This document shows, piece after piece, positions 35,635 through 51,106 of a stretch of 51,304 nt of DNA. Source of the DNA: Candidatus Anaerostipes excrementavium (GTDB lineage: Bacteria > Bacillota > Clostridia > Lachnospirales > Lachnospiraceae); assembly GCA_019114985.1 (NCBI GenBank), contig DXEM01000025.1:1-51304 (forward strand), in the 5' to 3' direction. The translations under genes were made by a program, and so were the position numbers. Position 1 is the first letter of the stretch. Every line of letters begins with the position of its first letter. Under the pieces are notes generated by a model, which searched no databases, was not told where the DNA came from, and was given only the letters and a program-made list of their open reading frames with translations.

Positions 35635-35779
35635 AAACACACTGCTTTCTCAAAATAAAATCGATTCGTAAATTCATGTCTGCTAATAATAGATTTCTTT
35701 TATTAAAAATTCTAATATACTTCATTATACGCCTAGAATTTTCTATCCACAAGTGCTTTTCCATTCCTTTAAAAACAGC

Positions 35780-35810
35780 AAAACTGCCGGCAGATTAGAT
35801 CCGCCGGCAG
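35780..35810 (-). terminator. Terminator of the six-gene DUF6603 operon
   Basis: CTGCCGGC (35784-35791) and GCCGGCAG (35803-35810) form an eight-pair GC-rich stem with an 11-base loop, then TTTTG on the minus strand. It lies 15 bases after the last gene and closes the operon. Confidence 0.8.
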
Positions 35811-35825
35811 AAATCATTTATTCTT

Positions 35826-38315
35826 TTACTGCTTCTTTTTCAGTTTCTTCATTTCCTCGATCAAAGCCCTTATCTCTTCCTCAATTGGATTGGGCTCTTT
35901 CTCCTGCGGCTCATTCTGTGCATAGAAATCTCCGGACCAGTATCCGTTTGCTTCCAGGTAATTTCCACAATCCTCATCTTCAAAAATAAAGTTGTAAACA
36001 TAATCTTCGTATGGTTCCTCAATCACTTCTGTTATTTCGGCAGTACCGTTTGGCATCATCAGTCTGTCACCCGGTTTTAATGCTCTTGCGGTCACTCTTT
36101 TGCCTTTCCAATGATTTTCGTCATATACTTTCATTGCATGCCCTCCGGAAACTCTAATGCTATTTCCGTCGGCCGTCATAATTTTAAATATGGTCGGGTC
36201 CATTCCTTTTAATATATCTTTTACCTCGAGAATTCTATCTCCGAATACTGGAATTCTGTCTTTGATCCTGATTTCATTCGCCCGTTTGCAGCTTCCGTCT
36301 TCTGTGCGAATAAGCGTTTCTTTTGCATAACATCCCCAATAAATTACGATTGGCGGAATATAGACGTTGACCTTCCCTTCTGTACTGATATAATATTCAT
36401 TTCCTTCCGGCACTTCATCGTCGCTGATGATAGAAATATAATATCTGTCATTTGTTCTTCCCACCCGCGGTTCATGCTCAACGTTCAGAACAAATCCGCC
36501 ATTCAAATAGCATTTATGAGAACTGTCATCCAGAAATCCGCCTGAAATATCGCAATCCCAATCATAAGGACTGATACCGGAATCATTCGGATATTCCATA
36601 TTAAAATCTGCACAATTTGAACCAGCATCAAATTTGATGTCTCCATGCTCATTTAGGATTCCGCCCAGCTCCTCGATCTTTGTATTGTTATGGAACGCTG
36701 CCACACAGCTCCTGCCGCTTGAAATATTGTAATCAAGGTAAAACGGCTGATACTTACTCTCGCCGTCTACATAGGAGTCAATCGTCGCATTGAGGACTTT
36801 CTTTTCTGTCTTATGGAAGGTGATTTTCCCGGAGATTGGAAGAATGGTACGCAGTTTTCCTCCCTGAAACTTATTATGAAAGTAATAACCGTTCTCATCA
36901 TAATAATCCGCATCAGAATATACCTGAGATGAGCTAGGCGTCCTTCCATACAGGAAAATAATATTCCCCGCTTTTTTGCTATGCTGCCAATGAGGATTTG
37001 TAAGCTCTATCTTATCAATATAAGATTCCTGTTCTGTATTGTCAAAACGGAACAGGCTTTCGGCCAGCTCCGCATAAGTGATGGAGCCATCCTGGTTTTC
37101 GTAAGTTACATCCGCTGTCAATTTAAATTCCCTTCCGTTGAGTTTTTCTGCCGGAAATACATCGGTTTTGATCTTATTCAGCGTATGCATAACATCCCCT
37201 TCTCCATATAGGGAATTATTATAAATCACTTCCTTTGTCTTTTCGTCTTTTATCTTAACCGTGACTTGATATGCGACCGGAACCGGAAGATTCGGACTTT
37301 CCTGATACGAGATAATATTGGTAGATGAGTTTGCATAAGACAAACTAATATCGGCAAACATCCGGTAAAAATTATACACCTTATTTTGTCCTTCTCTTGC
37401 CGCTCTGTTTTTTTCACTCTTAGATACACCTCCGACTCCAACCCGGTCGACCTGTGTAATGTTTCCGTATACTTTTACCTCTTCCTCTCCGCAGTCATTG
37501 GTATTCCTAATTTTAGCTTTTTGTCTTGTTTTCAGCGCTGCATTCCATATATGCGGATATTTTTTCAGCTCATTTTCGCCGCCATGGTTTTGAATGAATC
37601 TCCTGAAGTCTCCGGCATCCGCAAAATTTAATGTACGGGCGCCTGTCCTTAGATCTTCCTGAGATTCTTCGATAACCTCATTATCATTCATCGTACATCC
37701 TCCATCCGGATGATGAATCGTGATCACGGCATCTTTCCCCTGTGGACCGCCGTCTCCTCCGTCTCCAAACTTCCCGCCGGCAGTTCCTTTCTGTCCGCAT
37801 TCTCCGCCTGTTCCGCATCCGCCTGTACTGATTCCGCCGCTTCCGCCTTTTCCTCCGATTCCCCCTTGGAAGGAATAAACATATGCATAGCTTGTTGATT
37901 CCGGATCTTTTCTTTCATAAGTGAAATCTACTTTAGCTCCGTCGCCGCCTGCTCCTCCGTTGCCGCCTCTGCCGCCGTCTGTTCCTTCTTTTCCTTTGCC
38001 TCCTCTGCCCCCATTGCCGCCGGAAGCTTTGATGTGAATATCTCCCACCAGATCGGATACAATGATTTTGACATTTCCTCCGGCTTCGCCGTCTGTTCCG
38101 TTCTCTCCCGAACCATAGGCTCCGTCCTTGCCATCTGCTCCGGTTACTAAAATATCGAAATCACGATGTCCCGGATATTCCTTATGATTGATCAGACAAT
38201 CAATTCGAAGTTCTTTCAGAGTATTTGGAACTACGATACATCCGCTTTCTCTTAACTCGACACATTCCAGATTTTTTTCGATCTCAACCATATCTGTAAT
38301 TACTTTTTTCTCCAT
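35826..38315 (-). CDS. Glycine-rich collagen-like protein with C-terminal Hint domain
   Basis: An 829-residue protein with no recognised function. Residues 59-80, 98-128 and 150-195 are glycine-rich blocks (GADGKDGAYGSG, GGNGGRGGKGKEG, GGIGGKGGSGG) separated by short beta-like strands (NVKIIVSDLVGDIHIKA, AKVDFTYERK). Residues about 330-655 look beta-rich. Residues about 661-801 form a Hint (hedgehog/intein) domain: Cys662 in GCYAKETLIRTEDG, His726 in RVSGGHAMKV, LKPGDRLMMPNG, and the closing NYLEANGYWSGDFYAQN; a 28-residue Glu/Lys tail follows. The Hint part may cleave the chain or attach it to another molecule. ATG at 38315 has AAGGAGGG. Last gene of the operon, 13 bases after the previous one. 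No signal peptide. Confidence 0.85.
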   Translation of the reverse strand: MEKKVITDMVEIEKNLECVELRESGCIVVPNTLKELRIDCLINHKEYPGHRDFDILVTGADGKDGAYGSGENGTDGEAGGNVKIIVSDLVGDIHIKASGGNGGRGGKGKEGTDGGRGGNGGAGGDGAKVDFTYERKDPESTSYAYVYSFQGGIGGKGGSGGISTGGCGTGGECGQKGTAGGKFGDGGDGGPQGKDAVITIHHPDGGCTMNDNEVIEESQEDLRTGARTLNFADAGDFRRFIQNHGGENELKKYPHIWNAALKTRQKAKIRNTNDCGEEEVKVYGNITQVDRVGVGGVSKSEKNRAAREGQNKVYNFYRMFADISLSYANSSTNIISYQESPNLPVPVAYQVTVKIKDEKTKEVIYNNSLYGEGDVMHTLNKIKTDVFPAEKLNGREFKLTADVTYENQDGSITYAELAESLFRFDNTEQESYIDKIELTNPHWQHSKKAGNIIFLYGRTPSSSQVYSDADYYDENGYYFHNKFQGGKLRTILPISGKITFHKTEKKVLNATIDSYVDGESKYQPFYLDYNISSGRSCVAAFHNNTKIEELGGILNEHGDIKFDAGSNCADFNMEYPNDSGISPYDWDCDISGGFLDDSSHKCYLNGGFVLNVEHEPRVGRTNDRYYISIISDDEVPEGNEYYISTEGKVNVYIPPIVIYWGCYAKETLIRTEDGSCKRANEIRIKDRIPVFGDRILEVKDILKGMDPTIFKIMTADGNSIRVSGGHAMKVYDENHWKGKRVTARALKPGDRLMMPNGTAEITEVIEEPYEDYVYNFIFEDEDCGNYLEANGYWSGDFYAQNEPQEKEPNPIEEEIRALIEEMKKLKKKQ

Positions 38316-38328
38316 ATCAGAACCCTCC

Positions 38329-39897
38329 TTAAAATTGATATTCCCAGACAGAAGTTCCTTCCTCTGTCCAAAATGCAGCTGCCATCGTCTGCTCATCCAC
38401 TGCTCCTGCCACAGGATGCGTTCCCGCCTGAAAATCAGGGAAGAAGTGCGTATCCGTAAATTTCTCCCTGTCGCTTACCTCAAACACATATCCATTCAAA
38501 ACAATATAGACTGCATTGGTCTTGACCAGATAAATGTTATCGTCTTTGACGCCCGGGCATTCAAATATATTATTTTTATAATCATCTTCCATATCATAGA
38601 AAAATACCCAGTCATTATCGTACAGAACCGCAGCGCATCCCTTGGCTCCATTTGACAAAACGTCCATTGCCCTGATTTTCGTCCCTTTCGGCTTTTTTAA
38701 ATATCTGCCATTCATCCATTTGCCTCCGATTAGATCAAAGAAGCCAATGTCTTCTTCGGACGCGAGCACAATAACCGGCGGATTGCCTGCGGAAAGTATC
38801 ACATGGGCAGAAATCAGTCCTTCTGCATCATCTTCATACTTTTTCCATGATTTTTCTCCAAAATCCATTTCACAGTAAGTCACACGATCACTGCTTACAT
38901 AACATACGCAAAACTTCTGCTCAGAGAAAGAAGAAGAATAGAACTTAAATCTTTGGGGCGGGCAGGGATTCACAGAATAGATCTTCCACGTTTTCAAATC
39001 CTGACTGATATACAAATCAGGGTGAATGTAAAGAAAGTAATCGCCCCCATAGCTTTCATAAAATTTGTAACGTCCGAATTCATCTGTCTGCGGGAAATTT
39101 TTCGTCCCTGTTTTCTGTTTCCAAAGCGTACGATATACATACAGTTCTTTTGTAATGGAACAGAAATCATTGTACGCCGTTAATGTGAATTTTTTATCCT
39201 TATCTATTTTGGTAATATACGGAGGAAGATTGGCGGCCAACGCTCCGTGTTCATCATATAAAAAGGCAGATGCTTTTTCATTTTCTTGTATTTCCCATGA
39301 TATATACGCTGTATCCCCTTTATGTACCGCACTCACAGGATGAAGCAGATCCTCCTGCGTATAGGCTCCAAATCTTTCAATATACACGGCAAATCCTCTT
39401 TCCAGACGAATCTGATATGAAATCCTGCTGTCAAGGTCAGGAAAGAAATAATCGAAATCATCCACATAGACCTGAAGGGTAATCGGGCTCCCCGTATCCG
39501 GTATTTCCGTAAAAGCACACTTATCCGAAAGCTGAAATCCCACAGAAAAATCGGCAGCAAGAGCATCGGCAGCTGTGATGATTACCGCACAACGTTCTTC
39601 CGTATCCCTGAACCTTCCGTAGGAAATACTCCAATCCATATCTCCATTGGAGTGGAACATTTTAAAAAAAGCATCCAACTGAATCTCTTGTGTCCCATCG
39701 TTTTTAAAAAGCTGTTCAAAACCTTTGATATAAATCGTCGGATAAGCCTCACCGCCCTTCTTCTCGTACATCTTCTTATCCTCTTTTTCCACCGAGTCTT
39801 TATAAATTGTAAAATAGAAATCATTTTTTACAATATACTCTCTGGGATCATTGGAAAAAAACACTTTTTCAGGTATCCTAACGCTTATTCCTTCCAT
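38329..39897 (-). CDS. Unknown 522-residue beta-rich protein, part of DUF6603 operon
   Basis: Not assigned to a family. The N-terminal 240 residues look like beta-sandwich segments, including GFAVYIERFGAYTQED and an Ig-like stretch (AYISWEIQENEKASAFLYDE then YITKIDKDKKFTLTAYNDF) typical of fibronectin/Ig domains in bacterial surface or tail proteins. Residues about 255-520 carry repeated strand-turn-strand units (YFLYIHPDLYISQDLKTWKI, CAAVLYDNDWVFFYDMEDDY, GTSVWEYQF), suggesting a beta-propeller with sialidase-like S-x-D-x-x-x-W turns. ATG at 39897 follows GAGGTG; the start overlaps the preceding gene by 20 bases. No signal peptide or membrane helix. Confidence 0.8.
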   Translation of the reverse strand: MEGISVRIPEKVFFSNDPREYIVKNDFYFTIYKDSVEKEDKKMYEKKGGEAYPTIYIKGFEQLFKNDGTQEIQLDAFFKMFHSNGDMDWSISYGRFRDTEERCAVIITAADALAADFSVGFQLSDKCAFTEIPDTGSPITLQVYVDDFDYFFPDLDSRISYQIRLERGFAVYIERFGAYTQEDLLHPVSAVHKGDTAYISWEIQENEKASAFLYDEHGALAANLPPYITKIDKDKKFTLTAYNDFCSITKELYVYRTLWKQKTGTKNFPQTDEFGRYKFYESYGGDYFLYIHPDLYISQDLKTWKIYSVNPCPPQRFKFYSSSFSEQKFCVCYVSSDRVTYCEMDFGEKSWKKYEDDAEGLISAHVILSAGNPPVIVLASEEDIGFFDLIGGKWMNGRYLKKPKGTKIRAMDVLSNGAKGCAAVLYDNDWVFFYDMEDDYKNNIFECPGVKDDNIYLVKTNAVYIVLNGYVFEVSDREKFTDTHFFPDFQAGTHPVAGAVDEQTMAAAFWTEEGTSVWEYQF

Positions 39898-42800
39898 CTG
39901 CTTCACCTCGTTCTATCAATACGCCGTCCGTGATTAAAGTTTCTCCGATCTCTCCTATGGATACCGAAGAGTCTTCCACATTCATACATTCATACGCCAC
40001 CTGTCCGTTTTTCAGTTTTGGATAATATCTCACAAAATCTGCATCGCCGGCAAACGGCGGCAGAATCGCTCGATCTGCTTCCGAAATCATCGTATGGAAC
40101 TCCGATGACAACAACTGATATTTTGAAAAATCTGCATGCTCCCCCATCAGCTCAATTTGTTTTACCGGCAGAAATCCCGTATTAATCGTTACTTTCAATG
40201 CCGGATCGAAAAGGAGGGTAACATTTTTGATTCCATCTGCAGAACTGATTGTAAATGGTTCCTTGTTTAAATACCCGGCACCCTCTTGTTCTGCTCCAAA
40301 CATTGGAAATCCACCGGAAAATCCATCATAAAACCCACAGCACACGCCGTCTGTCTCTCTGTTCATATCTCCGAACCAAACTGCAAATTGCTGCTTGGCA
40401 AGCCCCGCATCATGAAATTTTCCGACTTCATCATCTTTTTTTGACCATTCCGGTGCTCCGAAAAATTCCAGTTCCATGGAAACCTCTGCCAGTACAAGAG
40501 CCCGGCCGAATATGAAATGATTTTCTGACAAAGGAAGGGTCTTATTCAGCTTCTGATCAATCATACTCATTACTTCTGCAAACGCAGTGTCATCCTGTGT
40601 CACTGCGGAAATAAAACTTTTGATCCGTGGATCCGTCTCATCCGGCACGTTCGGAGATGGCACAAACCTGCCAACCGCCCTCTTCTGTCCTCCCGAATAC
40701 CGATAAACCGTCCTGATCACACCGAGATTGACCCCGGAATTCGAAAATACATTTAAATTTCGATTCAGCATATCCGGCAGAAAAATGCCGATTACAGGTG
40801 TTTCTCCCGGCAGCGGAGAAGAACGCACACGACAATCCTCTACTGTAGCGAAATCTGCCGAAAGTCTCGCTGACGAGGTCAGAGCAAGCGGCAAAAAACA
40901 CAGATCCTTATCCTTTGGCTGCAAATTCTCTGATATATATCTTTTTCCCTTAAATGCAAGTTCATCGTCAAGAATTCTCCTTTGCTTTCCAAAAGAAGAT
41001 ACCAAAGCCAATTTCGAAATCCCGAAAAATCCTTCCCGGAGCGGAAAAATCGGCATATTATTACGAACTGCCAGCCGATCGATGGACGGTTCCTGAAAAC
41101 TTAGAATGGTTGGATCCAGGCATTCTGCTATCGCTTTTGCATCATCATCCTGAGGATCGATATCAATCGGATACTGAAATGCATGTTCTAACCCAGTGAG
41201 ACTGATATGAAATCCTCCCAAATTCTGGGATACGGCAGCTAAATCTTTGATTTTCCCGGCAGTCTGAGCCGCATCTGGTAAGTCAGAATGATACTTCAAA
41301 TACTTTTCCAGCTTATCCTGCAGATTATAGACTCCATGAGGCGTCAAAACCGTCGCTCCGCTGCATCGAATCTCCTGTTCCGGCCTCGTCCCATCATACA
41401 CATAGTCGGTATTTCCATATACAAAACGACTCTCTTTTGGTTCCGAATCTTCATAGTCCGGATAAAAAGCAGTCTCCCACTGCAGCAGCAAAGTCACTTC
41501 TTCCATAGGATCTCCGTTATACATGACCGGAGAAAATTTTTCTTTTATAACCGGGATTGGCTTCAGCTGCGGTTTTATATTTTTTTCATCTAATAATACC
41601 GCCGTGACCAGATACTCCCTATAATTTTTCCATACATTTTCTATTCCGCTGATATCCCCGAAATATTCCAGGATCTTCTCCTCAGATATATCTGCGGTCA
41701 AATAGGAAGTTAAGCAAAAAAGGGTTTGATCTTTTTCAAATCTTCCCTCTTCTCCAAAAGCATATGTTCTCTCCATCCCTTTTCCGCACAGCATAAGCGC
41801 AGGATCTTTCGGCAGATAAAACGGCTCTGAAGATGCAGTCTGCAGCTCACCGTTTTGGTCGGCAAGCAGTTTCCCCAGTGTATTTCTTTTTTCTTCTCTG
41901 GCAGTCACAGCTTTTGAGATCTGCTGCCGCAGCGCAGCTATTTCCTCCATAAGAGAAGTCATATATTTCTTGATTTCTCCTTGTTGATTCCGGGCTGCTC
42001 CTTCGTAGATTTCCCACAGATAATACAGGGACTTCTTTTTGTATTCTAATGTGCGGCGAAGTTTTCCCGCCTCCCGTTCCAAAACATCCAGCTCCAAATA
42101 CTGTTTTTTCATTTCCGTCCGGCTGTCTGTCTTAAGATCTTTCGGCAGTTTCAGAGAAAATCTATCCTCCATGGGATCCATACGGGAAAATCCCCGGTAA
42201 TGAATATCATCGTCAATTTTAAAATTGCCGTCTGGCTGCGCTGCTTCATCTGCAGTGTCATATTGGATCGAAGTTAGGAAACGCTCTTTGGAGGAGTCCG
42301 GTCCGTAAAAACGTTCGCTTATAATCGCAGACAACGCCTCGGCAGAAGTTTTTCCGATTCCTACATCGATCTCCCCTGCAGGCAGCGGCTCCTCTTTCGC
42401 AAGATCAATGCCTCCGATTTCCCCGAACAGCACACTGGTATTACAGGCTGTCATCTTTTCATCGGAAACAGATAAATGATATTTCTCTAATACGATCTTC
42501 ATATCGTCGATTGTTTTCACACCATTTAGGATATCATTTGCCGAATTTGAATAATATCCCAGAACAAAATATGTAAGAACCGCATCGGACGGCACTCCTT
42601 CCAAATCATCATAGAAACCGAATACACTAGAACAGCTGGGATAATAAGCAGAAAACATAGGATCTCCTCCGCCTACTGCGGTAATCTTGTCAAAATATCC
42701 CCATTCTCCCACAGGTTCCGGCACAGGAGAAGACGCCGGATAAGTCCTTCCCATATAGCGGAAACGATGCCTTTGCCGAAGATCATCAAATTTTGGAATC

Positions 42801-43174
42801 GTTATGCTGTCGCTGTAACTGCCGTCAAGGGAATAAAAATTACTTTCTACAATGCTGCAGGCTGTATCAATTTCTCCGTTTTTCCAATACATCCTCGTTA
42901 CGATGAAACGATCCGGAACCGCCGGATATTCCAAATGCTTTCTCCCATTGCGATCCTCTGTTTCATACCCATTCTTTAACGCGGACGGAAGGACAAAATG
43001 AAGGTGAACACCTTTTTTTAGAAGGATATTTTTGTTAAATGCTCCGGGAGTTGCATCCTTTCCGAGATAAGACTTTAAAGCGGTCTTATAGTTGGGATTC
43101 ATTGCCGGCACCTGAAGCGGAGTCCTGAAATGCCGGGCAAGAACAATCATTGGTATCATAAGCTGATCAGACAT
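39878..43174 (-). CDS. Unknown 1098-residue protein with central coiled coil, part of DUF6603 operon
   Basis: Not assigned to a named family. It contains LKKGVHLHFVLPSALKNGYE and YPAVPDRFIVTRMYW near the N-terminus; from memory, a G-h-HLHW-x-LP-x-AL ... FP-x-VP-x-RW pattern occurs in large uncharacterised proteins of several phyla, encoded near DUF6603 genes. Residues about 335-440 are a long charged coiled coil (EMKKQYLELDVLEREAGKLR, MEEIAALRQQISKAVTAREE). After it come LPKDPALMLCGKGMERTY and, near the end, LLSSEFHTMISEADRAILPP. The coiled coil suggests a structural, oligomeric part. ATG at 43174 follows GAGGAGGTG and is one base from the previous stop codon. No signal peptide or membrane helix. 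Confidence 0.85.
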   Translation of the reverse strand: MSDQLMIPMIVLARHFRTPLQVPAMNPNYKTALKSYLGKDATPGAFNKNILLKKGVHLHFVLPSALKNGYETEDRNGRKHLEYPAVPDRFIVTRMYWKNGEIDTACSIVESNFYSLDGSYSDSITIPKFDDLRQRHRFRYMGRTYPASSPVPEPVGEWGYFDKITAVGGGDPMFSAYYPSCSSVFGFYDDLEGVPSDAVLTYFVLGYYSNSANDILNGVKTIDDMKIVLEKYHLSVSDEKMTACNTSVLFGEIGGIDLAKEEPLPAGEIDVGIGKTSAEALSAIISERFYGPDSSKERFLTSIQYDTADEAAQPDGNFKIDDDIHYRGFSRMDPMEDRFSLKLPKDLKTDSRTEMKKQYLELDVLEREAGKLRRTLEYKKKSLYYLWEIYEGAARNQQGEIKKYMTSLMEEIAALRQQISKAVTAREEKRNTLGKLLADQNGELQTASSEPFYLPKDPALMLCGKGMERTYAFGEEGRFEKDQTLFCLTSYLTADISEEKILEYFGDISGIENVWKNYREYLVTAVLLDEKNIKPQLKPIPVIKEKFSPVMYNGDPMEEVTLLLQWETAFYPDYEDSEPKESRFVYGNTDYVYDGTRPEQEIRCSGATVLTPHGVYNLQDKLEKYLKYHSDLPDAAQTAGKIKDLAAVSQNLGGFHISLTGLEHAFQYPIDIDPQDDDAKAIAECLDPTILSFQEPSIDRLAVRNNMPIFPLREGFFGISKLALVSSFGKQRRILDDELAFKGKRYISENLQPKDKDLCFLPLALTSSARLSADFATVEDCRVRSSPLPGETPVIGIFLPDMLNRNLNVFSNSGVNLGVIRTVYRYSGGQKRAVGRFVPSPNVPDETDPRIKSFISAVTQDDTAFAEVMSMIDQKLNKTLPLSENHFIFGRALVLAEVSMELEFFGAPEWSKKDDEVGKFHDAGLAKQQFAVWFGDMNRETDGVCCGFYDGFSGGFPMFGAEQEGAGYLNKEPFTISSADGIKNVTLLFDPALKVTINTGFLPVKQIELMGEHADFSKYQLLSSEFHTMISEADRAILPPFAGDADFVRYYPKLKNGQVAYECMNVEDSSVSIGEIGETLITDGVLIERGEADGRNKR

Positions 43175-43175
43175 T

Positions 43176-44060
43176 TTACACCTCCTCGGAAGATCGTTTG
43201 AATTTCGCTCGATGTGCCACGGCAATCATTTCAAAAGCAAAACGTGACGGCGAAATTTTATCAGTTCCAAGTTTTTTGCAGCTTTTTAGCTGCGCTTCGA
43301 CAGAATCTGCAAGTTTTTTTGCGTGAATTCTTCCGTTATCATCTGTAAAATCATCCATACAAAAAGATTGGATTCTTTCCCCCAGATCAGAATCATCCAG
43401 AACAGATCTGAGATCCATGCTCCTTGATATACGATTGTCTTGCCGATCTACGGTTGATGCTCCAAAACGCAGTCCTGTTTTCGGTTCTTCCACTAAAATC
43501 TCCTGCACATCGCCGGAGAAAAGACAAAGCATCACATCATCTGCAATTGTCTCCATCCTAAGGATGGGGAGCGGCTCGCCCTTTTCTCCCTCCTGCACGC
43601 CATTTTTATCAAATCCATACAGATGCAGCCCCTTCATCCTGCTCACAAGCTGAGAATGCATGATAAAACCGCTTATGAGCGTGTATTCTTCTGACTTCCC
43701 ATGGAAATTTTTTAAATATTTCTTTTTATGATTGGGATGCATTCGTTTCATTCTTGGTGTTTCCGAATAATCCCTGGCTTCTGCTGCCTTATGAAGCAGC
43801 ACTCTGTCTGACATACCTTCCTGCCTGCATACTCTCCCAATGGAAAATGCCCCGTCCAGCAGCGCATCTGTCCAATTAATATCCACATAAAAGAAACGGA
43901 TACTTTCTTTTGGCAGCTCTGATACATCCGAAATCAAATAAGTCAGCGGAACCCCTTTTAATAATCTTATTTCATCCGCATAATCTTTTAAATGATCGGG
44001 TACTTCAACCGGCACAAAATTCATTCGATTGCATGGTTCTTCCACAAAACGCCTCTTCAT
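43176..44060 (-). CDS. Unknown 294-residue protein, part of DUF6603 operon
   Basis: Not assigned to a named family. The most striking stretch is LKGVPLTYLISDVSELPKES followed by IRFFYVDINWTDALLDGAFSIGR; I recall near-identical patterns (GVPFNYLVPD, LP-x-ESIRFF, WxDALxDGAxSIGR) in uncharacterised proteins from other phyla next to DUF6603 genes. Later segments include LISGFIMHSQLVSRMKGLHL and ILVEEPKTGLRFGAS. Soluble; no catalytic motif seen. ATG at 44060 has GGAGGGG and shares ATGA with the previous gene. Its conservation with its neighbours argues for a shared complex. Confidence 0.82.
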   Translation of the reverse strand: MKRRFVEEPCNRMNFVPVEVPDHLKDYADEIRLLKGVPLTYLISDVSELPKESIRFFYVDINWTDALLDGAFSIGRVCRQEGMSDRVLLHKAAEARDYSETPRMKRMHPNHKKKYLKNFHGKSEEYTLISGFIMHSQLVSRMKGLHLYGFDKNGVQEGEKGEPLPILRMETIADDVMLCLFSGDVQEILVEEPKTGLRFGASTVDRQDNRISRSMDLRSVLDDSDLGERIQSFCMDDFTDDNGRIHAKKLADSVEAQLKSCKKLGTDKISPSRFAFEMIAVAHRAKFKRSSEEV

Positions 44061-45232
44061 AGTTTCCCCTCCGATAAAAATCTGCAAAGTTCCTGTAAAT
44101 CTGATACCGAGAAACCAATTGCAGCTTTTTGCTTATTTAAATGTTTTTTCACCGCCTGATCCTTTCTCCACGTCACGATCTTTTCTGCTTCTGAACGCCG
44201 GCTTAACGTGATTAATCTTCCAAGCTGAAAAGCAGCCGAATAACTAACATCAAATATCCCATTTTCAGAATCATATATCATTCTTCCATCTGCCGTAAAT
44301 TTTTCTTCTCCGTTGATTTCGTCATATCGTTCTGAATGATATGGAAGCAGAGGACCATGATAGAAGGAAAAGGTCTTCTCTCCTGTCCGCAGATGATGAG
44401 ATTTTAGATCTTTCTCTTTCACAATCCCGGAATGTTCCGCTAAGCCGTTTACCAAGGACACAAAAGACTGATCCTGCGTTTTCTCCGAATAGACATTCCA
44501 ATGATAGATAGAAATAAAGCGTACAAAATCGCAGTCATTTGGAATCTTTGCATTCAGATATCCTTCCGCCGAGACAAGATGCACGGTGCTTTTCACCGCA
44601 TGATCTTCGGAAGAGGGGACAAATCTGTTGGCTATGACTGTGGAAAACCATCCGTCTTGTTGTGCGATGGAATCCTCTGCGGCGGATAAATTGACAAATT
44701 TAGCATGGGCAAGCCACGGCAGGTCTTCCGCATCCGGCATGATTGAATCGTAAGTCTCTTTTGGAATCGTAAGTATATGTACATTGTCATCATCCTTGCA
44801 GCATGCAGCGGTTTTTTCCTTATATGGGAAAAATACTCCTTCCTCTTTTAGATTTTTCAACTCTTTGTACTTCACATCCATCTCTCTTGGGCCTTCATCT
44901 TCTGAAACAACAATCAGCGCAGTCCAAGGAACTCTATGTCCATCGATATCTTCCATCCATCGTTTGATCCACGGATATGTCTTATTTTTTAAAACAATGA
45001 ATGGCAGGGTTCCCGCAAAATCTCCTTGCTGTTCCGGAGCCGGATACACGCTAAACACCTCATCTGTCGCCATTGTTTCCGTATTTGCAGCAACGTAAAA
45101 ATCTTTTTTCACCGAAAATGTATCATTTTGCGGCAGAGTCACCGTCTGGATTCCCTCTGCGGTATACCTCCCCTCTTCAAGACCGGGAACACAGCTGTCT
45201 GCCAGCTTAAACTCCTTTTCATTTTCACCCAC
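44057..45232 (-). CDS. Unknown 391-residue protein, part of DUF6603 operon
   Basis: Not assigned to a named family. The region FYVAANTETMATDEVFSVYPAPEQQGDF, GTLPFIVLKNKTYPWIKRWM and VPWTALIVVSEDEG resembles a pattern (FxVxGPRF, VHSVYPP, LPHVVL-x-R-x-TLPWER, PWLALL) I associate with uncharacterised proteins encoded near DUF6603 genes elsewhere. Further on are FVRFISIYHWNVYS and FDVSYSAAFQLGRLITLSRR. Soluble. A GTG start at 45232 is preferred since AAGGAGG lies six bases before it; the ATG at 45238 abuts the ribosome site. Overlaps the next gene by four bases. Confidence 0.82.
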   Translation of the reverse strand: MGENEKEFKLADSCVPGLEEGRYTAEGIQTVTLPQNDTFSVKKDFYVAANTETMATDEVFSVYPAPEQQGDFAGTLPFIVLKNKTYPWIKRWMEDIDGHRVPWTALIVVSEDEGPREMDVKYKELKNLKEEGVFFPYKEKTAACCKDDDNVHILTIPKETYDSIMPDAEDLPWLAHAKFVNLSAAEDSIAQQDGWFSTVIANRFVPSSEDHAVKSTVHLVSAEGYLNAKIPNDCDFVRFISIYHWNVYSEKTQDQSFVSLVNGLAEHSGIVKEKDLKSHHLRTGEKTFSFYHGPLLPYHSERYDEINGEEKFTADGRMIYDSENGIFDVSYSAAFQLGRLITLSRRSEAEKIVTWRKDQAVKKHLNKQKAAIGFSVSDLQELCRFLSEGKL

Positions 45233-45262
45233 AAGCATCCTCCTTCCTACTTTTTCTTGCTC

Positions 45263-48200
45263 CTATAATATCAAGATATCTTCCGATAACCAGTTCTCTG
45301 CATTTTCGGCAAAAAGCCGGATATCCGTCCTTTCTGTAATTCCATACGTTTCCAGGAATTTCTTTCTGCGTTCTGCTAACTCAGTTTCAGCTTCATTTTG
45401 CGAAAATTTATGAATCGAATCTTCCTCCGATAAATCCATCCGCACATCCTGCATGAAACCGTAACAATTCTCAAACTCCAATGTATTCTTTTTGTACAGT
45501 TCGTCCAGAGAAATATATCGTGTTCTCGGAAACAATTCCGGCTGCCCTGTCTCCGTATGAAGCTGCAGCAAAACTCCGCATACTGCATCTTGTACGACAG
45601 ACTCCTCTTTTAAACTGCCTCCAGGCCCTGGATCACTTTTCCACAAAGCGGCCGGAACATTTTGAGTCAGCGGTGTTTTTGTGAACTTATCCTTCATATC
45701 TCTTCCGCTGCTGTCCGTAATTTTAACTTTTGTTTCTGCCTGCAGCTTGGCGCTGTTTACCGGACGGATATTTCCGTTTTCCGGTATTTGTGAACGGAGA
45801 GAAACCGCAAAAGAACTTCCGTCAATGATATCTGTTCCATCTAAAGTTTTCCCAGTGCTGCCCTCCACTGAAAGTGTAAGGATATCCGTATCACCGCTTC
45901 CATCATCCCGTCTCTTATCTCCATTGTCCGTTAAAAAGGATTCCTTGAATCTGTTCCAGTCCATCGCTTCTTTCGAATGATCCTTCCCGGTCGAGAAAGC
46001 AATGGTAAAAGAAATGATAAACCAGGAAATATGGACTCTGCCCTGCACCTCAGGTCCCCACAGAGTCAATTCTGCTGCCAGCTCAATGGAAAATGTTTTA
46101 TGGATAAACCACCAATCAATCCGATAGGAAGCTCCAAGAGTCACACCAATGGAGGCCCTGTAAGAAAACGGCTTCCACGCGATGATGAAATCTGCATATG
46201 CGATAAACCAGGCTTTTAAATTTCCCAGAGAATAGACTGCGCTTAGTTTCCCTCCCGCCATGACTGCTGCCGGGGTAAGCGCAAAATACAATTCTCCGGA
46301 TATCTTCAAATGGGAATCTACGTTCCAATCCAGTCCGAGGCGCGGAACCACCGGATAATGTTCTGGTTTTTGAAAGGCCGGATGATATCCTCCAAGGGTA
46401 ACTACAAAATCGCCGCTGTGCCCGCTGTTTCCAAACCAGAAGTATGCCGCAAAACCGCCGGTCAGCCGGCAGGAGCGGTGGAATATATAGGATTCTGAGG
46501 TCAGCTGGGCTTCTACACTGACGACTCCTTCCGAAGGATTATAGTATGCTTTTACAGCAAGCTGTGCTTTAGCGATTGGATTCGCCGATACATTTGGCGG
46601 AACAGAAACCTCCGCAATTCCAAGTACGCCTACCTCAAAATGATTTCCGAAAGAAACATCCAACAGCAAAAAACCATGGATCATCTGAAATGAGGTAAAC
46701 TTCACTCCTGCAGTCAAGAAGTTTTGTTTCTCCTCATTACGGATATATTCCTTAAAATCGCTCAAAATCTGCGAGTGAAACCCGGAAACCGCTGCGGTAA
46801 TCAATGGGTATTTCGGTACCTCTTCTATCCGGGGAAGCACAAGCTTTTTATTATATCCAAATCCTAACGCCAAACCTGTTACAAAAAAGGCCGGCGGCCC
46901 TCCGATTGGCGCTGAAAGTGCAAGATATGCCATCAGCGAACCGGAAGAATATTCCCCAATTGCTTCCGCAGTGAATGTTCTAAATTTTATTAGAATCGAA
47001 CCGGCATAAGCAATTGTTTGAGCCTCCTGTGTCCTGGAAAAGCTTCCTCCGATGGCAAGTATTCCATTATCAAATGCAATTCCAAACCCGGAAAGATAAA
47101 ATTGGATATCAGAAAGCTTTGTAAGGTTCGCTCCAACACCTGCCTCTGTCAGCGCAAAAGAAAACGGTGAAACATTGAGCGAAGCATCCAGAAGAATCAC
47201 CGCTTGATTTCCGTCCAGACCAACCCCTATTTTCGGTATGGATAAAATAGCAAAAGTTTTGTCAATCGGGAACCATTTCATGGTCTCCGTGCCTCCGGAA
47301 GCAGTCAAAAGATTTCTCTTCTGTGAAGTGTCCGGATGATAAAGATCCAGACGGCAGACAGTTCCAAATGCCATACATCCAAACACGACTCCCTGCTCGG
47401 AAGATGCACAAATCTCAAAATCCTTCACTGAAAAATCGGAGGTCTCTGTCAAAAGCGGTCTCACCAGCTCTCCTGCAAGAGGCAATTCCAGCATATTAAC
47501 AGAAACGGACGGCGCTGTTTTGTAAGCAACATAAAAACCGTTCTGATCCCCGGATACGATCTCTGCCAAAATCCGCCCGGCGCTTGTATTGACCACGACA
47601 GAAAACATCTTTTTTGTGAAGTTATATTTCAGTTCCAATTTTAATACAGAGAATTCTTTCACAAACTCCGGCAGGTGTTTTGTATCAATTCCAAATTCAT
47701 CGGCTATTTTTTGGAACGAAAGATTTGTAAATTCCGCATTTCCCGAAATGATAAATTCCTCGTCTTCTTTTGACAGGAGTAATGATACTTCCGATCCGCA
47801 CACAGACAATTCTGCTGTGATTTCAAATGACAGCGGTTTGTCTGCCGAAGATACAATTTCCAAAGAAAATGCCCGAATAGAAAAATCATCTGAAATCTTC
47901 AAAATATTTTCCAGAGAAACATAGGCCGAAAGTTCCCTGTCTTTTGACTGATAAGAGACAGTAACATTTCGAATACAAACTGTAAGCAGTTCCTCAGGAA
48001 ATGCCGCAGGATCATAGTGTTCTGAAAACTCTTCTGCAATTTGTTTCAAAAAGTCTCCCAAGCTGTAATCATTTTCTGAATATGCCGCTGCCTCGAAAGA
48101 AAATGAACCATCCTCATAATAGGAACCGCTCAGATGGAGAAAAAGTCCGCCGAATGTCAGCGTTCCGGACAACAAAAGATCATCGAATCTGCCATCTCGA

Positions 48201-51106
48201 AAATCAAGAGCAAAGGAAACATCTTCGATGGCTGCTTCTCCCTTCCCCAGAGAGAACTTAAACAGCTCCTCTGCTTGTAAATACAGGGAATAATTGCCCC
48301 TGGCAGCATCCGCCGTCATCTCCATACCGCCTAGCTTTATCTCCGGAAATTTAATGTCTTTCGCAAACAGCTCAGCAACCTCTGCAAAATTCAATACAGA
48401 ATCATCTGCAAGCCGGGCGTTTATGATCTGATCGGAACGATAGGAAATATCAAAAACCGTTTTGCCTAACGTCCATTTCCCTAAGACCGTATAATCAATT
48501 TCTCTATATTTGTTATCAAATGGATATTCTATCTCAATTTCAAAATATGGCTGAAGTGTTATCTTATTCTCGAAAATATTCCATGGATTTTCTGCGGTAA
48601 TTGTGAAATTCATTTGGGAGATCTCAAAATGGTCCATTGAGACTGTCATAGAAATATCTCTAAGTCCCAAAGACCCAAAAATACTTTCTTCATCCGGAAG
48701 AACAGCTGAAATCGGTATGACGTCATCGATTCCCAGAAGCGAGAAAAGCCGAGTCATCGTAAGAACTTTTCCGTCCCTATACTCACCGCTGATATACAAA
48801 AGTCCGCTTGAAGGAGAGATTACCATGGTGACAGCTAACCGATCTGTCCCGCTGCCAATCTCCGCCAGAGCGAAAACATATGGATCGGAAAAATCTCCTT
48901 CCAAGCCACTTTTGATTCCGATCCTGTCTGCACGAAACGCAAGTCTATCCGTAATCCCAATCAAGAAATCTGTTTCTATGATTCCGGTAAACTCAAATCC
49001 ATTCTCATCTTCTATTACGGTACAGAAAATCTCCTGGATATCTTTTACCGGCATAATCATTCGAAGCGCTTCCCAAAACCGTGCATCTGATGCAGACATC
49101 GCTGTAAATGTGAATCCGTTTCCTTCCAGACTGACATTCTTTATATCCGTAAAAGTCACAGCAGATAAAAACGGGATTCTCTCCGTTCCAAGAATCCATG
49201 TCGGAAGACATGAGAAATCCTCTGAAAAACAGTATCTCTCTGCAGACATTATCTTCCGGTACAAATCCATAAGTTTTTCAGATGCCGCACCGCTGCAGAC
49301 CATCCTGCCAAGAACAGCATCCGGAGAATGAAATGTCCGAACATCCAAATTCGAAAAACTGCGGATCACCAACCCTCCAAAAGCCTGTTCATAGGCAGCT
49401 TCTTTTAATGCAGGATCCATAATCACAGGCTTTGACCATTGGGGAACTTCATAGCCCTCTTTTTCAAGATTTCCACGCATCTGATCAATTTGGCTGTCCA
49501 GATCCAAGATAGCTTTCATCGGTTCAAGCTCTCCATGATAATGCTTTTGTTTGATCTGAGCCATAATGCGCACAGAGTTTACAATCCCGGTCACATTAGG
49601 TGTGCCATCCGGGTATTTCATCAGAGTCTCAAAAGGATCTCCATAAGCAGGCATGAGAGCAGAAATCCATTGTTCCTCAAATCTTGTACTTTCATTTCTG
49701 GTCGTTTGGACGACAGCGGAAAGCTTGGCAGCTGCATTATGAAGCCCCAATGAATAGGCCGCTTCATAGGTTTCCGCAAGTGTATGGACTCCCGAAATCC
49801 TTTTATCATAATATAACCGCCAAAACGAGAACATCGTGGGAAGGATAATATAACTGACCGGTATTTCCTGTCCATCACTATCTATTTTTTCGCCAAGATG
49901 ATGCGTGTAAAACTCGATCAAACCGGTCGTATGGCCTGACGGACCTGCCCAAAGAGGCATAAGATAATGCCGGTAGGTCATGGTCGCAATATGCTTTTCA
50001 TTTCGGTTCCAACTCCAAAGCAGCGCACGTTTTTTCAGTGTAATGACAAGCTCCGGAATGAAATTCTTCCCCGCCGCTTCTCTGACAGTACAAGGTATCA
50101 AAAAGTCCTGATTAGCTGCAAAATCAAAATTTTGCGGAACCGTCAGGGAATACCGATTGACAGCAACGCTGCCTCCCGCTTTTCTTATATAGTTGATAAA
50201 CATCGCACAACGCATCGTTGGAGGAATTTTATGAAATTGATCACATGCGGCTCCTATCGTTTGACGATCATTAAGATCTGTCGGAACAACATAAGGCAGC
50301 CCACTTTTCTCTTTGATTGTATCTTCCAACAGCAGCACAAACGCCGACCATTGCATTTCTTTATCCAACTTTTCTAGAGTTGGCAAATAGAAATAAATAT
50401 ATTCTGTTTGAAGGAAATTAAATATGTCTTTTAATTGAATTTTTGTCAGAATTGCTTTGATTAACTGCTTCTGCACTTGAAACAGTACAGGAGATGAACA
50501 TAATTCCAAAGCGTAGATTTTCTCCAGTTTTTTCGTTGCCCAGGTGGAGATTTCTCCCATGACAGCTCTTGCAAGTTCTGTCATATCTCTGCAGATTCGA
50601 ACTTGATCCCGACTGGATTTCGCCAGATCCTTCAGTCCCACGCTGCTCAGATTTGTCATCATCGCGTGGATCCTTTGTTTTGTTTCGGAATTCATATATT
50701 TAGCGGGGAATGACTGCCAGTTATGTGCATACTGGTCTCCCGTCGTTTGCGGTCTCATCCCGGAGCTGACTAAAATATTTCCGATCATGGGATGTGCCCA
50801 AAACTCAAAAACATGATCAATCACAGGATGAAATGCATGTGCCGGATCAGCATAAGCTGCAAAAATATCAATTCCATACTGTGTCATAAACTGACAATTG
50901 ATATTGATGCAAAGTGAATCTGATTCTGCCACAAGAAACACAGTTTCTTTCAGTTTATTAAGATTTTGAAATTGGACTACAGAACCATCCGGCTTGGTAT
51001 AGCATGCCTCATTCCATGATATGAGCTGTATATTCCCCGCTGTAATTTCTTCCTCTGAGTACAGTGGAATGGTATACGATTCTTGTTTTTGGGGACCTTT
51101 TATCAT
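45263..51106 (-). CDS. Giant DUF6603 domain protein, first gene of the operon
   Basis: A protein of 1947 residues. The DUF6603 region spans about 1270-1720 and includes SAPIGGPPAFFVTGLALGFG, TLGGYHPAFQKPEHYPVVPR, LGLDWNVDSHLKISGELYFA and AYADFIIAWKPFSYRASIGV; the tail has NVPAALWKSDP. Residues about 675-1200 show an approximate 110-residue periodicity of a short helix followed by amphipathic strands. The N-terminal 650 residues are different, with a helical part (130-250) and a conserved-looking stretch YLMPLWAGPSGHTTGLIEFY (381-400) and ISGVHTLAETYEAA. No signal peptide or clear membrane helix. DUF6603 has no known function. The ATG at 51106 has only a poor ribosome site. A gap of about 30 bases separates it from the next gene. 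Confidence 0.87.
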   Translation of the reverse strand: MIKGPQKQESYTIPLYSEEEITAGNIQLISWNEACYTKPDGSVVQFQNLNKLKETVFLVAESDSLCININCQFMTQYGIDIFAAYADPAHAFHPVIDHVFEFWAHPMIGNILVSSGMRPQTTGDQYAHNWQSFPAKYMNSETKQRIHAMMTNLSSVGLKDLAKSSRDQVRICRDMTELARAVMGEISTWATKKLEKIYALELCSSPVLFQVQKQLIKAILTKIQLKDIFNFLQTEYIYFYLPTLEKLDKEMQWSAFVLLLEDTIKEKSGLPYVVPTDLNDRQTIGAACDQFHKIPPTMRCAMFINYIRKAGGSVAVNRYSLTVPQNFDFAANQDFLIPCTVREAAGKNFIPELVITLKKRALLWSWNRNEKHIATMTYRHYLMPLWAGPSGHTTGLIEFYTHHLGEKIDSDGQEIPVSYIILPTMFSFWRLYYDKRISGVHTLAETYEAAYSLGLHNAAAKLSAVVQTTRNESTRFEEQWISALMPAYGDPFETLMKYPDGTPNVTGIVNSVRIMAQIKQKHYHGELEPMKAILDLDSQIDQMRGNLEKEGYEVPQWSKPVIMDPALKEAAYEQAFGGLVIRSFSNLDVRTFHSPDAVLGRMVCSGAASEKLMDLYRKIMSAERYCFSEDFSCLPTWILGTERIPFLSAVTFTDIKNVSLEGNGFTFTAMSASDARFWEALRMIMPVKDIQEIFCTVIEDENGFEFTGIIETDFLIGITDRLAFRADRIGIKSGLEGDFSDPYVFALAEIGSGTDRLAVTMVISPSSGLLYISGEYRDGKVLTMTRLFSLLGIDDVIPISAVLPDEESIFGSLGLRDISMTVSMDHFEISQMNFTITAENPWNIFENKITLQPYFEIEIEYPFDNKYREIDYTVLGKWTLGKTVFDISYRSDQIINARLADDSVLNFAEVAELFAKDIKFPEIKLGGMEMTADAARGNYSLYLQAEELFKFSLGKGEAAIEDVSFALDFRDGRFDDLLLSGTLTFGGLFLHLSGSYYEDGSFSFEAAAYSENDYSLGDFLKQIAEEFSEHYDPAAFPEELLTVCIRNVTVSYQSKDRELSAYVSLENILKISDDFSIRAFSLEIVSSADKPLSFEITAELSVCGSEVSLLLSKEDEEFIISGNAEFTNLSFQKIADEFGIDTKHLPEFVKEFSVLKLELKYNFTKKMFSVVVNTSAGRILAEIVSGDQNGFYVAYKTAPSVSVNMLELPLAGELVRPLLTETSDFSVKDFEICASSEQGVVFGCMAFGTVCRLDLYHPDTSQKRNLLTASGGTETMKWFPIDKTFAILSIPKIGVGLDGNQAVILLDASLNVSPFSFALTEAGVGANLTKLSDIQFYLSGFGIAFDNGILAIGGSFSRTQEAQTIAYAGSILIKFRTFTAEAIGEYSSGSLMAYLALSAPIGGPPAFFVTGLALGFGYNKKLVLPRIEEVPKYPLITAAVSGFHSQILSDFKEYIRNEEKQNFLTAGVKFTSFQMIHGFLLLDVSFGNHFEVGVLGIAEVSVPPNVSANPIAKAQLAVKAYYNPSEGVVSVEAQLTSESYIFHRSCRLTGGFAAYFWFGNSGHSGDFVVTLGGYHPAFQKPEHYPVVPRLGLDWNVDSHLKISGELYFALTPAAVMAGGKLSAVYSLGNLKAWFIAYADFIIAWKPFSYRASIGVTLGASYRIDWWFIHKTFSIELAAELTLWGPEVQGRVHISWFIISFTIAFSTGKDHSKEAMDWNRFKESFLTDNGDKRRDDGSGDTDILTLSVEGSTGKTLDGTDIIDGSSFAVSLRSQIPENGNIRPVNSAKLQAETKVKITDSSGRDMKDKFTKTPLTQNVPAALWKSDPGPGGSLKEESVVQDAVCGVLLQLHTETGQPELFPRTRYISLDELYKKNTLEFENCYGFMQDVRMDLSEEDSIHKFSQNEAETELAERRKKFLETYGITERTDIRLFAENAENWLSEDILIL

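Follow-up and report, generated by a model that had tools for sequence, protein, structure and literature searches.

A conserved four-protein core around DUF6603 in a putative operon of Candidatus Anaerostipes excrementavium

Several described systems come close to the locus reported here. Repeating-beta-groove proteins form a group whose definition is given in PMC11014939. For the Hint domains of Hedgehog proteins and inteins, PMC4031507 sets out the roles of the Cys1 nucleophile, the block-B His and the terminal Asn. Gly-rich motifs of the tail-fibre tip adhesin gp38 are described in PMC12892980. Phage tail fibres, outer-membrane beta-barrels, the ApoB100 belt and the Gly-rich domain of ALK/LTK are the other points of comparison. 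The locus belongs to Candidatus Anaerostipes excrementavium and lies on one whole contig (DXEM01000025.1, our C16) of 51304 bases from a 2.69-Mb genome; this contig is the window throughout. Six minus-strand genes, confirmed by a check of the open reading frames (ORFs), occupy positions 35826-51106 in the order F-E-D-C-B-A, and F carries the domain DUF6603. We report that F, E, D and C almost certainly constitute a conserved, mobile, cytoplasm-made module.

The core comprises F (45263-51106, 1947 residues), E (44057-45238, 391-393 residues), D (43176-44060, 294 residues, ATG at 44060) and C (39878-43174, 1098 residues, ATG at 43174), all, like the features given below, on the minus strand. To find relatives, 84,980 species genomes were scanned with a DUF6603 alignment, which gave 96 relatives and 80 loci that were kept; genes in these loci were labelled by iterated hidden Markov models (HMMs) started from the window proteins, and length-filtered rows were used for alignments A6-A9. 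Labels were assigned to F in 79 loci, to E in 76, to D in 74 and to C in 71. All four occurred together in 66 of the 80 F-selected loci, which represent ten NCBI phyla and three candidate phyla. C lay downstream of F in 53 of these 66 loci and upstream in 13, and in 41 of them E and D were fused as one gene. Adjacent core genes were tightly packed, with overlaps or gaps of at most 50 bases at 141 of 158 junctions. Among the 14 loci short of four genes, 11 were placed such that the missing gene could lie beyond the end of the contig or stretch, while L085, L093 and L096 had unlabelled or fused parts instead of the full core. One record underlies L090 as well as L008/L009.

Because all 80 loci had been found through F, and the HMMs had been grown on these same loci, we made a second draw by phylum with the HMMs unchanged. 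It yielded 26 F loci above the cut-off, one of which (L101) repeats the record of L052; L125, a sub-cut-off match with none of the core, was excluded. E stood beside F in 25 of the 26 loci, D in 16 and C in 13. Nine loci (L105-L108, L119-L121, L123 and L124) displayed a second architecture, composed of F, a longer E' of 926-1247 residues and a third gene of 1563-1995 codons, in some cases cut by the stretch. In its front part E' is a relative of E (hhalign, E 1.9e-10 across 204 columns); kinship between C and the third gene C', which stands in its place, was tested, and none was detectable. In L111, the one locus with no E label, the contig ends inside a frame that overlaps the end of F and by eye begins like E'. 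The E/D profile matched the same 2 of 398 genomes in the window's phylum as DUF6603 did.

The original prediction, that the middle proteins recur beside DUF6603 in unrelated phyla, thus stood in 80 plus 26 loci for the 391-, 294- and 1098-residue families E, D and C, and for F and E the association was overturned neither by DUF6603 loci lacking these neighbours nor by partners that clearly match enzymes or phage proteins. It had to be narrowed in extent. The 829-residue A was found only in close relatives: A occurred in 12 loci (two from the same record) and B in 8, all in close Bacillota or metagenome-assembled genomes (MAGs), with a further A in L112. A conserved unit of six genes was accordingly rejected, and what is widely kept is the four-protein F-E-D-C.

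DUF6603 is rare and patchily distributed, at about 0.5-4% of sampled genomes in four phyla. Within the window's phylum, 2 of 398 genomes had it (the window's own genome included); it was further present in 5 of 292 from the phylum of Westiellopsis, in 9 of 296 from that of Streptomyces and in 13 of 296 from that of Chitinophaga (12 above the cut-off), where the last three counts each include the positive used for drawing. Five of 61 near relatives of the window genome, itself included, carried it, and the profile matched 0 of 14 control genomes. A quick maximum-likelihood tree was calculated from 83 DUF6603 cores, those of the window and of 82 of the 85 loci L014-L098; the three loci left out had no core row over 350 residues. 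Phylum labels (ten NCBI phyla) changed 21 times on this tree, against a minimum of 9 and a shuffled mean of 45, and Cyanobacteriota, Bacteroidota, Chloroflexota, Actinomycetota and candidate phyla were interleaved. Six rows sit on long branches, and more than one label change is no proof of transfer; the mixing of phyla nonetheless suggests, from sequence comparison, transfer between lineages. Window F fell among other Lachnospiraceae MAGs, sharing up to 70% identity with them, and the copy of Anaerostipes hominis was placed far away. Relatives of F were found in 11 plasmid records, none in phage records and, within the reach of two peptide patterns, none in viral contigs. Both the mixed phyla and the plasmid records agree with the mobility that had been proposed from the sequence of the window.

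A hydropathy scan (19-residue window, threshold 1.9, signal peptides judged from the first 60 residues) detected no stretch above 1.9 in 79 E, 76 D and 76 C ORFs, nor in the 45 ORFs of a fifth group described below. By the same measure there was no signal peptide in E, D, C, F or fifth-group ORFs, and the first 60 residues held no 19-residue hydrophobic stretch in any F ORF.

Family searches gave a single name. DUF6603 (PF20248) matched residues 1281-1725 of F with E 1e-139 and 466.9 bits against a gathering score of 27; it is the sole Pfam family above its cut-off among the six products, as had been predicted together with the absence of named families in the other five. Pfam, NCBIfam, PHROGs and PADLOC offered nothing credible for B, C, D and E. 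For all six proteins the best PHROGs E-value was 0.088, and PADLOC-DB 2.0 returned 0 families at E up to 1. The proteins had no PHROGs, Pfam or NCBIfam match to sheath, tube, spike or baseplate proteins, and F relatives were not found in phage records or, by two peptide patterns, in viral contigs; the injection device considered in the original prediction is unproven. There was no PHROGs capsid match for the F-E-D-C body, no tail-fibre or collar domain in window B or A (Pfam, PHROGs), no Pfam family of wall anchors or S-layers in any of the six proteins, no ATPase, cyclase or sensor Pfam family in the core and no Pfam match to AsmA, chorein or TamB. Neither Pfam nor NCBIfam credibly assigned any of B to E to the subunits of Tc toxin complexes, a search run without a dedicated Tc profile. 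Profile searches of the PDB with E/D, C, F, B and the neighbour family CL6 (see below) returned nothing, or coiled-coil-type or chance matches. The name DUF6603 was not mentioned in the full texts of an open library of 5.39 million papers, a search outside of which lie other names, preprints and closed journals. Literature on Hint domains, Gly-rich tips, lipid bridges and collar/LamG gene clusters offered no more than background. We could assign F-E-D-C to no described system.

We obtained structure models of residues 941-1947 of F and of a fused relative of E and D. The F model (69 rows) reached a predicted local distance difference test score (pLDDT) of 82 and a predicted template modelling score (pTM) of 0.61, and displays long antiparallel strands with helices between modules. 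The DUF6603 core (residues 1281-1725, 45932-47266) forms a long amphipathic antiparallel beta structure. N-terminal to it, an iterated HMM with loose inclusion recognised five tandem modules (47495-49009), matches of 62-145 residues each that start at residues 700, 808, 920, 1004 and 1143. One to six copies of this module were detected in 57 of 78 F proteins; where modelled, a module consists of several strands plus a helix, and the strand count per module is not constant. Polar and non-polar faces alternated along the 42 strands of at least seven residues (z 7.5 over shuffles, 0 of 1000). Foldseek against the PDB gave nine entries passing E 0.001, namely three of ApoB100, four LptD complexes, an S-layer deinoxanthin-binding complex and the outer-membrane protein SlpA, with ushers, VDAC and porins further down; no repeating-beta-groove protein of the VPS13/TamB kind was recognised by title among the 50 PDB matches listed. 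A library of viral structures gave three matches at or below E 0.001, one of them named a tail fibre, with TM-scores of 0.09-0.14. Of 100 F positions conserved at 85% or more, 88 are non-polar, Gly or Pro. F proteins of about 3600 residues, nearly double window F, occur in L054, L066, L070 and L082 (Moraxellaceae, Hydrogenophaga).

The fused E/D relative (L029, 640 residues, 44 rows) was modelled with a pLDDT of 87 and a pTM of 0.74. Foldseek against the PDB found no match at or below E 0.001 (best 0.037), so that the conserved block around DUF6603 includes a well-modelled component with no Foldseek counterpart in the PDB. Among the C residues conserved at 85% or more, 52 of 63 are non-polar, Gly or Pro. 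The long coiled coil that had been proposed for C is backed by weak coiled-coil-type matches at approximately 41816-42127, and by nothing stronger. Identity between the window proteins and their close relatives was 62% for E, 59% for C, 57% for D, 53% for B, 51% for F and 44% for A; the core of F reached up to 79%.

Many relatives encode a further, variable protein. This fifth group comprises 45 ORFs, one or two per locus, that follow C or lie between C and F. The 49 rows scanned were the 39 of these ORFs (cluster CL0) with at least 400 residues, window B and members of CL5 (six) and CL12 (three). LamG was matched by 12 rows, a lactonase propeller by 8, Kelch by 5, the S74 endosialidase chaperone (Peptidase_S74) by 4, the phage tail collar by 3 and Gp10_C by 2, and several PHROGs tail-fibre, tail-collar-fibre and virion families each matched 3 to 8 fifth proteins. 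An anchor domain of about 330 residues, complete or partial, was detected in 37 ORFs from 31 loci. In seven cyanobacterial relatives the average identity was 67% for this anchor, 39% for what precedes it and 28% (19 to 81%) for what comes after, while E and F of the same genomes showed 74% and 58% identity. The tips of these cyanobacterial proteins are unlike each other (collar, S74-like and others). The C-terminus of C carries a fused piece of the anchor in five loci (L051, L056, L059, L062 and L087), a hint that C is close to where the fifth protein docks. A large structural assembly with surface contact, as suggested by the original prediction, is plausible through these fibre-like proteins of relatives, not from the window itself.

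The window has B (38329-39897, 522 residues, ATG at 39897) and A (35826-38315, 829 residues, ATG at 38315) in addition to the core. The C-terminal part of B drops to 29-50% identity with close relatives and is more variable than the N-terminal part. The propeller-like part that B had been thought to contain was not confirmed by Pfam or profile searches, and profile kinship to the Kelch-type fifth proteins was considered and not found. A is composed of a Gly-rich part, a variable middle, a Hint domain and a charged tail, and is the least conserved of the six, with 24-38% identity in the middle. Its Gly-rich part (37722-38141) was recognised by composition. Residues 79-235, counted in the 856-codon ORF, contain 33% Gly and 3 Pro, and Gly occupies 23, 11 and 18 of 52 positions in the three registers. 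This leaves no clean Gly-X-Y register, and neither ordinary collagen nor the collagen-like part of the original prediction was retained. A Gly-rich ORF of 391 residues also lies two genes upstream of F in Thioclava (L095:4687-5862); its pairwise link to one A relative (E 1.4e-6) may be compositional.

The Hint domain of A (35913-36332) has a Gly-Cys junction and a block-B-type His, and no C-terminal His-Asn. It was visible below the Pfam cut-off, with 24.3 bits for Intein_splicing against 35.8; the Anaerostipes homologue matched Vint, Intein_splicing, PT-HINT and Hint_2, all below cut-off. The Hint part proposed from the sequence is therefore visible but falls short in score. Of the 13 sequences listed, one of them that of the window, two are cut before the junction and the other 11 all have Trp-Gly-Cys there, and the His at the block-B place was present in all A sequences that reach that block. 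A splicing intein was rejected, as the C-terminal His-Asn is absent from window A and from the homologues that reach that end. Since the Gly-Cys junction and the block-B His are kept and the terminal His-Asn is missing, cleavage after Gly688 (856-codon ORF), or transfer to a nucleophile, would be expected; the junction Cys is residue 689 of that ORF and residue 662 of the 829-residue protein.

The gene boundaries are those of the original prediction, whose six ORFs, gaps and overlaps were all reproduced from the chosen starts. Starts were picked by Shine-Dalgarno-like leaders, and that of F has no clear leader. E starts with GTG (391 residues), and an ATG two codons upstream would give 393. 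Accordingly F and E are separated by 30 bases (24 with the ATG), E and D overlap by 4, D and C are 1 base apart, C and B overlap by 20 and B and A are 13 apart. Just 3' of A, a terminator scan detected an intrinsic-terminator-like stem with a T tail (35784-35810), in line with the predicted closing terminator. With 12 pairs, this stem is the longest among 15 terminator-like sites of the scanned stretch, a total at shuffle level (13.6 +- 3.9). Promoter-like sites were not above chance (27 versus 32.8 +- 5.9 in shuffles), and the idea of an island marked by GC content was dropped (0.431 versus 0.418). The next gene past the terminator (33667-35640, minus strand) is separate; it encodes a GGDEF domain, a hydrophobic N-terminus and a sub-cut-off dCache match.

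Genes beside the core were surveyed in 61 of 232 neighbour ORFs, chosen by hand, with the matches listed covering 25 of 69 Pfam families. Among the matches listed, 6 of the 61 had a metallo-beta-lactamase (MBL) fold and 4 had DUF4135, which we take to be LanM-like and which may lie in the Chitinophaga proteins of about 660 residues upstream of F in L051, L056 and L059; the PADLOC models LmuA and RTasMBL each matched 7. CL6 proteins, encoded just upstream of F in L042, L044, L045, L050, L052 and L071, share the invariant motif QEWCHLxGHGxGG...CNTEQLxIE. CL6 presumably resembles a nuclease and may be an effector, with no Pfam or PDB support for this. MBL-fold, DUF4135 and CL6 neighbours, seen in a minority of loci, are possible cargo.

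Other neighbours were confined to few loci. A small family of 180-262 residues lies beside the core as six ORFs (L006:7384-8004, L009:12719-13333, L010:5577-6191, L027:1995-2537, L079:2605-3237 and L112:8302-9090); the hosts are three members of the window's genus, Algicola, one MAG of the Oscillospiraceae and a further Bacillota genome. With only these six and none found in the window's genome, we do not regard it as a general part. On plasmid p-YT9A of Paenibacillus polymyxa (L015), genes for Baseplate V, DUF4280, pentapeptide and GH-E nuclease proteins lie about 8-14 kb upstream of the DUF6603 gene and spore germination genes downstream. On a Streptomyces plasmid, CATRA conflict-system and CHAT-domain genes are found 5-10 kb upstream of the DUF6603 locus (L017:9074-14130).

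The reading that joins most of these observations is that F-E-D-C would be the body of an undescribed, horizontally moving and cytoplasm-made machine, a particle that contacts membranes or lipids and bears exchangeable recognition proteins. We put it forward tentatively, as possible rather than probable. The fifth protein would dock on the C side of the body and recognise a surface, upon which F would meet lipid as a membrane pore, belt or conduit. In the window, B and A may take over the recognition role, and the Hint domain would cut after Gly688 (856-codon ORF), so that the front part of A is released or ester-linked to an acceptor. Lysis or some exporter would be needed for the particle to get out of the cell.

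Several observations weigh against this particle. Window B and A have neither the anchor domain (HMM) nor a tail-fibre family, and profile comparison does not relate B to the Kelch-type fifth proteins. TM-scores of the ten best Foldseek matches of F are just 0.04-0.19, and such matches may arise with any long antiparallel sheet; amphipathic strands are also found in ordinary sandwiches. An internal hydrophobic 19-residue stretch occurs in 16 of 86 F ORFs, though not in window F. Polar residues occupy 24 of the 85 strongly conserved (at least 85%) E/D positions, which leaves room for an enzymatic role of E/D. The second architecture leaves 9 of 26 loci with no recognisable C and D, and no export route, lysis gene, cargo or target has been shown for the proposed particle.

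The properties of F also fit an intracellular lipid-handling machine, with F as a repeating-beta-groove-like bridge or a lipid belt, E/D and C as scaffolds that position it at membranes and the propeller or LamG proteins as intracellular adaptors. The tandem strand-plus-helix modules (one to six detectable copies in 57 of 78 F proteins), the amphipathic strands, ApoB100 and LptD among the best Foldseek matches and the lack of a signal peptide by hydropathy are all consistent with it. We nevertheless consider it unlikely, if not to be dismissed: no AsmA, chorein or TamB match and no repeating-beta-groove title among the 50 PDB matches listed was found, tail-collar, S74 and LamG modules like those of the fifth proteins are unusual inside cells, and the patchy 0.5-4% distribution and transfer are ill-suited to a housekeeping lipid role. 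Rare, scattered occurrence (2/398, 5/292, 9/296 and 13/296), transfer and a cytosolic location by hydropathy would suit a system of defence or conflict with phages or rivals; the core would then sense or contain an invader, with the nuclease- or metallo-beta-lactamase-like neighbours as effectors. The MBL-fold neighbours (6 of 61 among the matches listed), the LmuA and RTasMBL matches (7 of 61 each) and the invariant His/Cys/Asn motif of CL6 point the same way. Yet the six window proteins have no PADLOC match, MBL and CL6 genes stand in a minority of loci, the core has no Pfam ATPase, cyclase or sensor, and the nuclease reading of CL6 is our own assumption with neither Pfam nor PDB support, which makes a defence role distinctly improbable to us.

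An equally low probability attaches to a non-injecting surface adhesin or fibre complex, or to a sporulation, capsule or storage coat, in which F would be a structural beta rod. Strongly conserved positions in F (88 of 100) and C (52 of 63) are non-polar, Gly or Pro, as in structural proteins, and the fifth protein carries recognition-type ends. Against this, none of the six proteins has a wall-anchor or S-layer family in Pfam or, by hydropathy, a signal sequence, and the core is present in phyla with one as well as with two membranes, envelope types that we assigned to the phyla of the F tree from general knowledge. That the genes are a chance cluster or a decayed prophage could be argued from just one of six products passing a curated cut-off. 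Co-occurrence kept over ten phyla already refutes this where F and E are concerned, and in most loci also for D and C; F was not found in phage records or, by two peptide patterns, in viral contigs, and the best PHROGs E-value was 0.088. We regard this explanation as next to negligible.

Should the particle with swappable recognition proteins be real, it would be a new cell-to-cell or cell-to-surface machine of gut Clostridia, cyanobacteria and soil bacteria; a lipid machine would represent an unrecognised lipid-transfer route. The boldest version of the particle reading, which we think unlikely, is a new phage-independent class of bacterial particle, assembled in the cytoplasm and directed by interchangeable recognition proteins of the fibre, lectin or propeller type; its repeat-bearing, amphipathic DUF6603 protein would provide a lipid conduit or a pore of very large size, Hedgehog-like self-processing would be added in some Bacillota, and the whole would be shared by transfer among at least ten phyla.

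The described systems compare with the locus as follows. Repeating-beta-groove and AsmA-TamB conduits may resemble F in its tandem strand-plus-helix modules and amphipathic strands, but F has no AsmA or chorein family, window F lacks a membrane anchor by hydropathy, and none of these conduits was recognised among the 50 structural matches listed. Outer-membrane beta-barrels (LptD, ushers, porins) and the ApoB100 belt are the best Foldseek matches and share long amphipathic antiparallel strands with F; they differ in that TM-scores are 0.04-0.19 (best ten), F has no signal peptide, and F occurs in monoderm phyla too. The Hint domain of A differs from those of Hedgehog proteins and inteins in lacking the C-terminal His-Asn and in scores below Pfam cut-offs, and agrees with them in the Gly-Cys junction and block-B-type His, with the roles given in PMC4031507. 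Window A has no sequence match to gp38-type adhesins or to the ALK/LTK Gly-rich domain. It shares a Gly-rich part with the former, whose Gly-rich motifs are those described in PMC12892980, and in L079 a fifth protein matches ALK_LTK_GRD behind its LamG and anchor parts. From phage tail fibres and receptor-binding proteins, finally, the locus differs in that the F-E-D-C body has no sheath, tube, baseplate or capsid match and that window B and A show none of their domains; the fifth proteins of the relatives are like them in combining a conserved anchor with varied ends, some of which are collar, Gp10_C and S74 domains.

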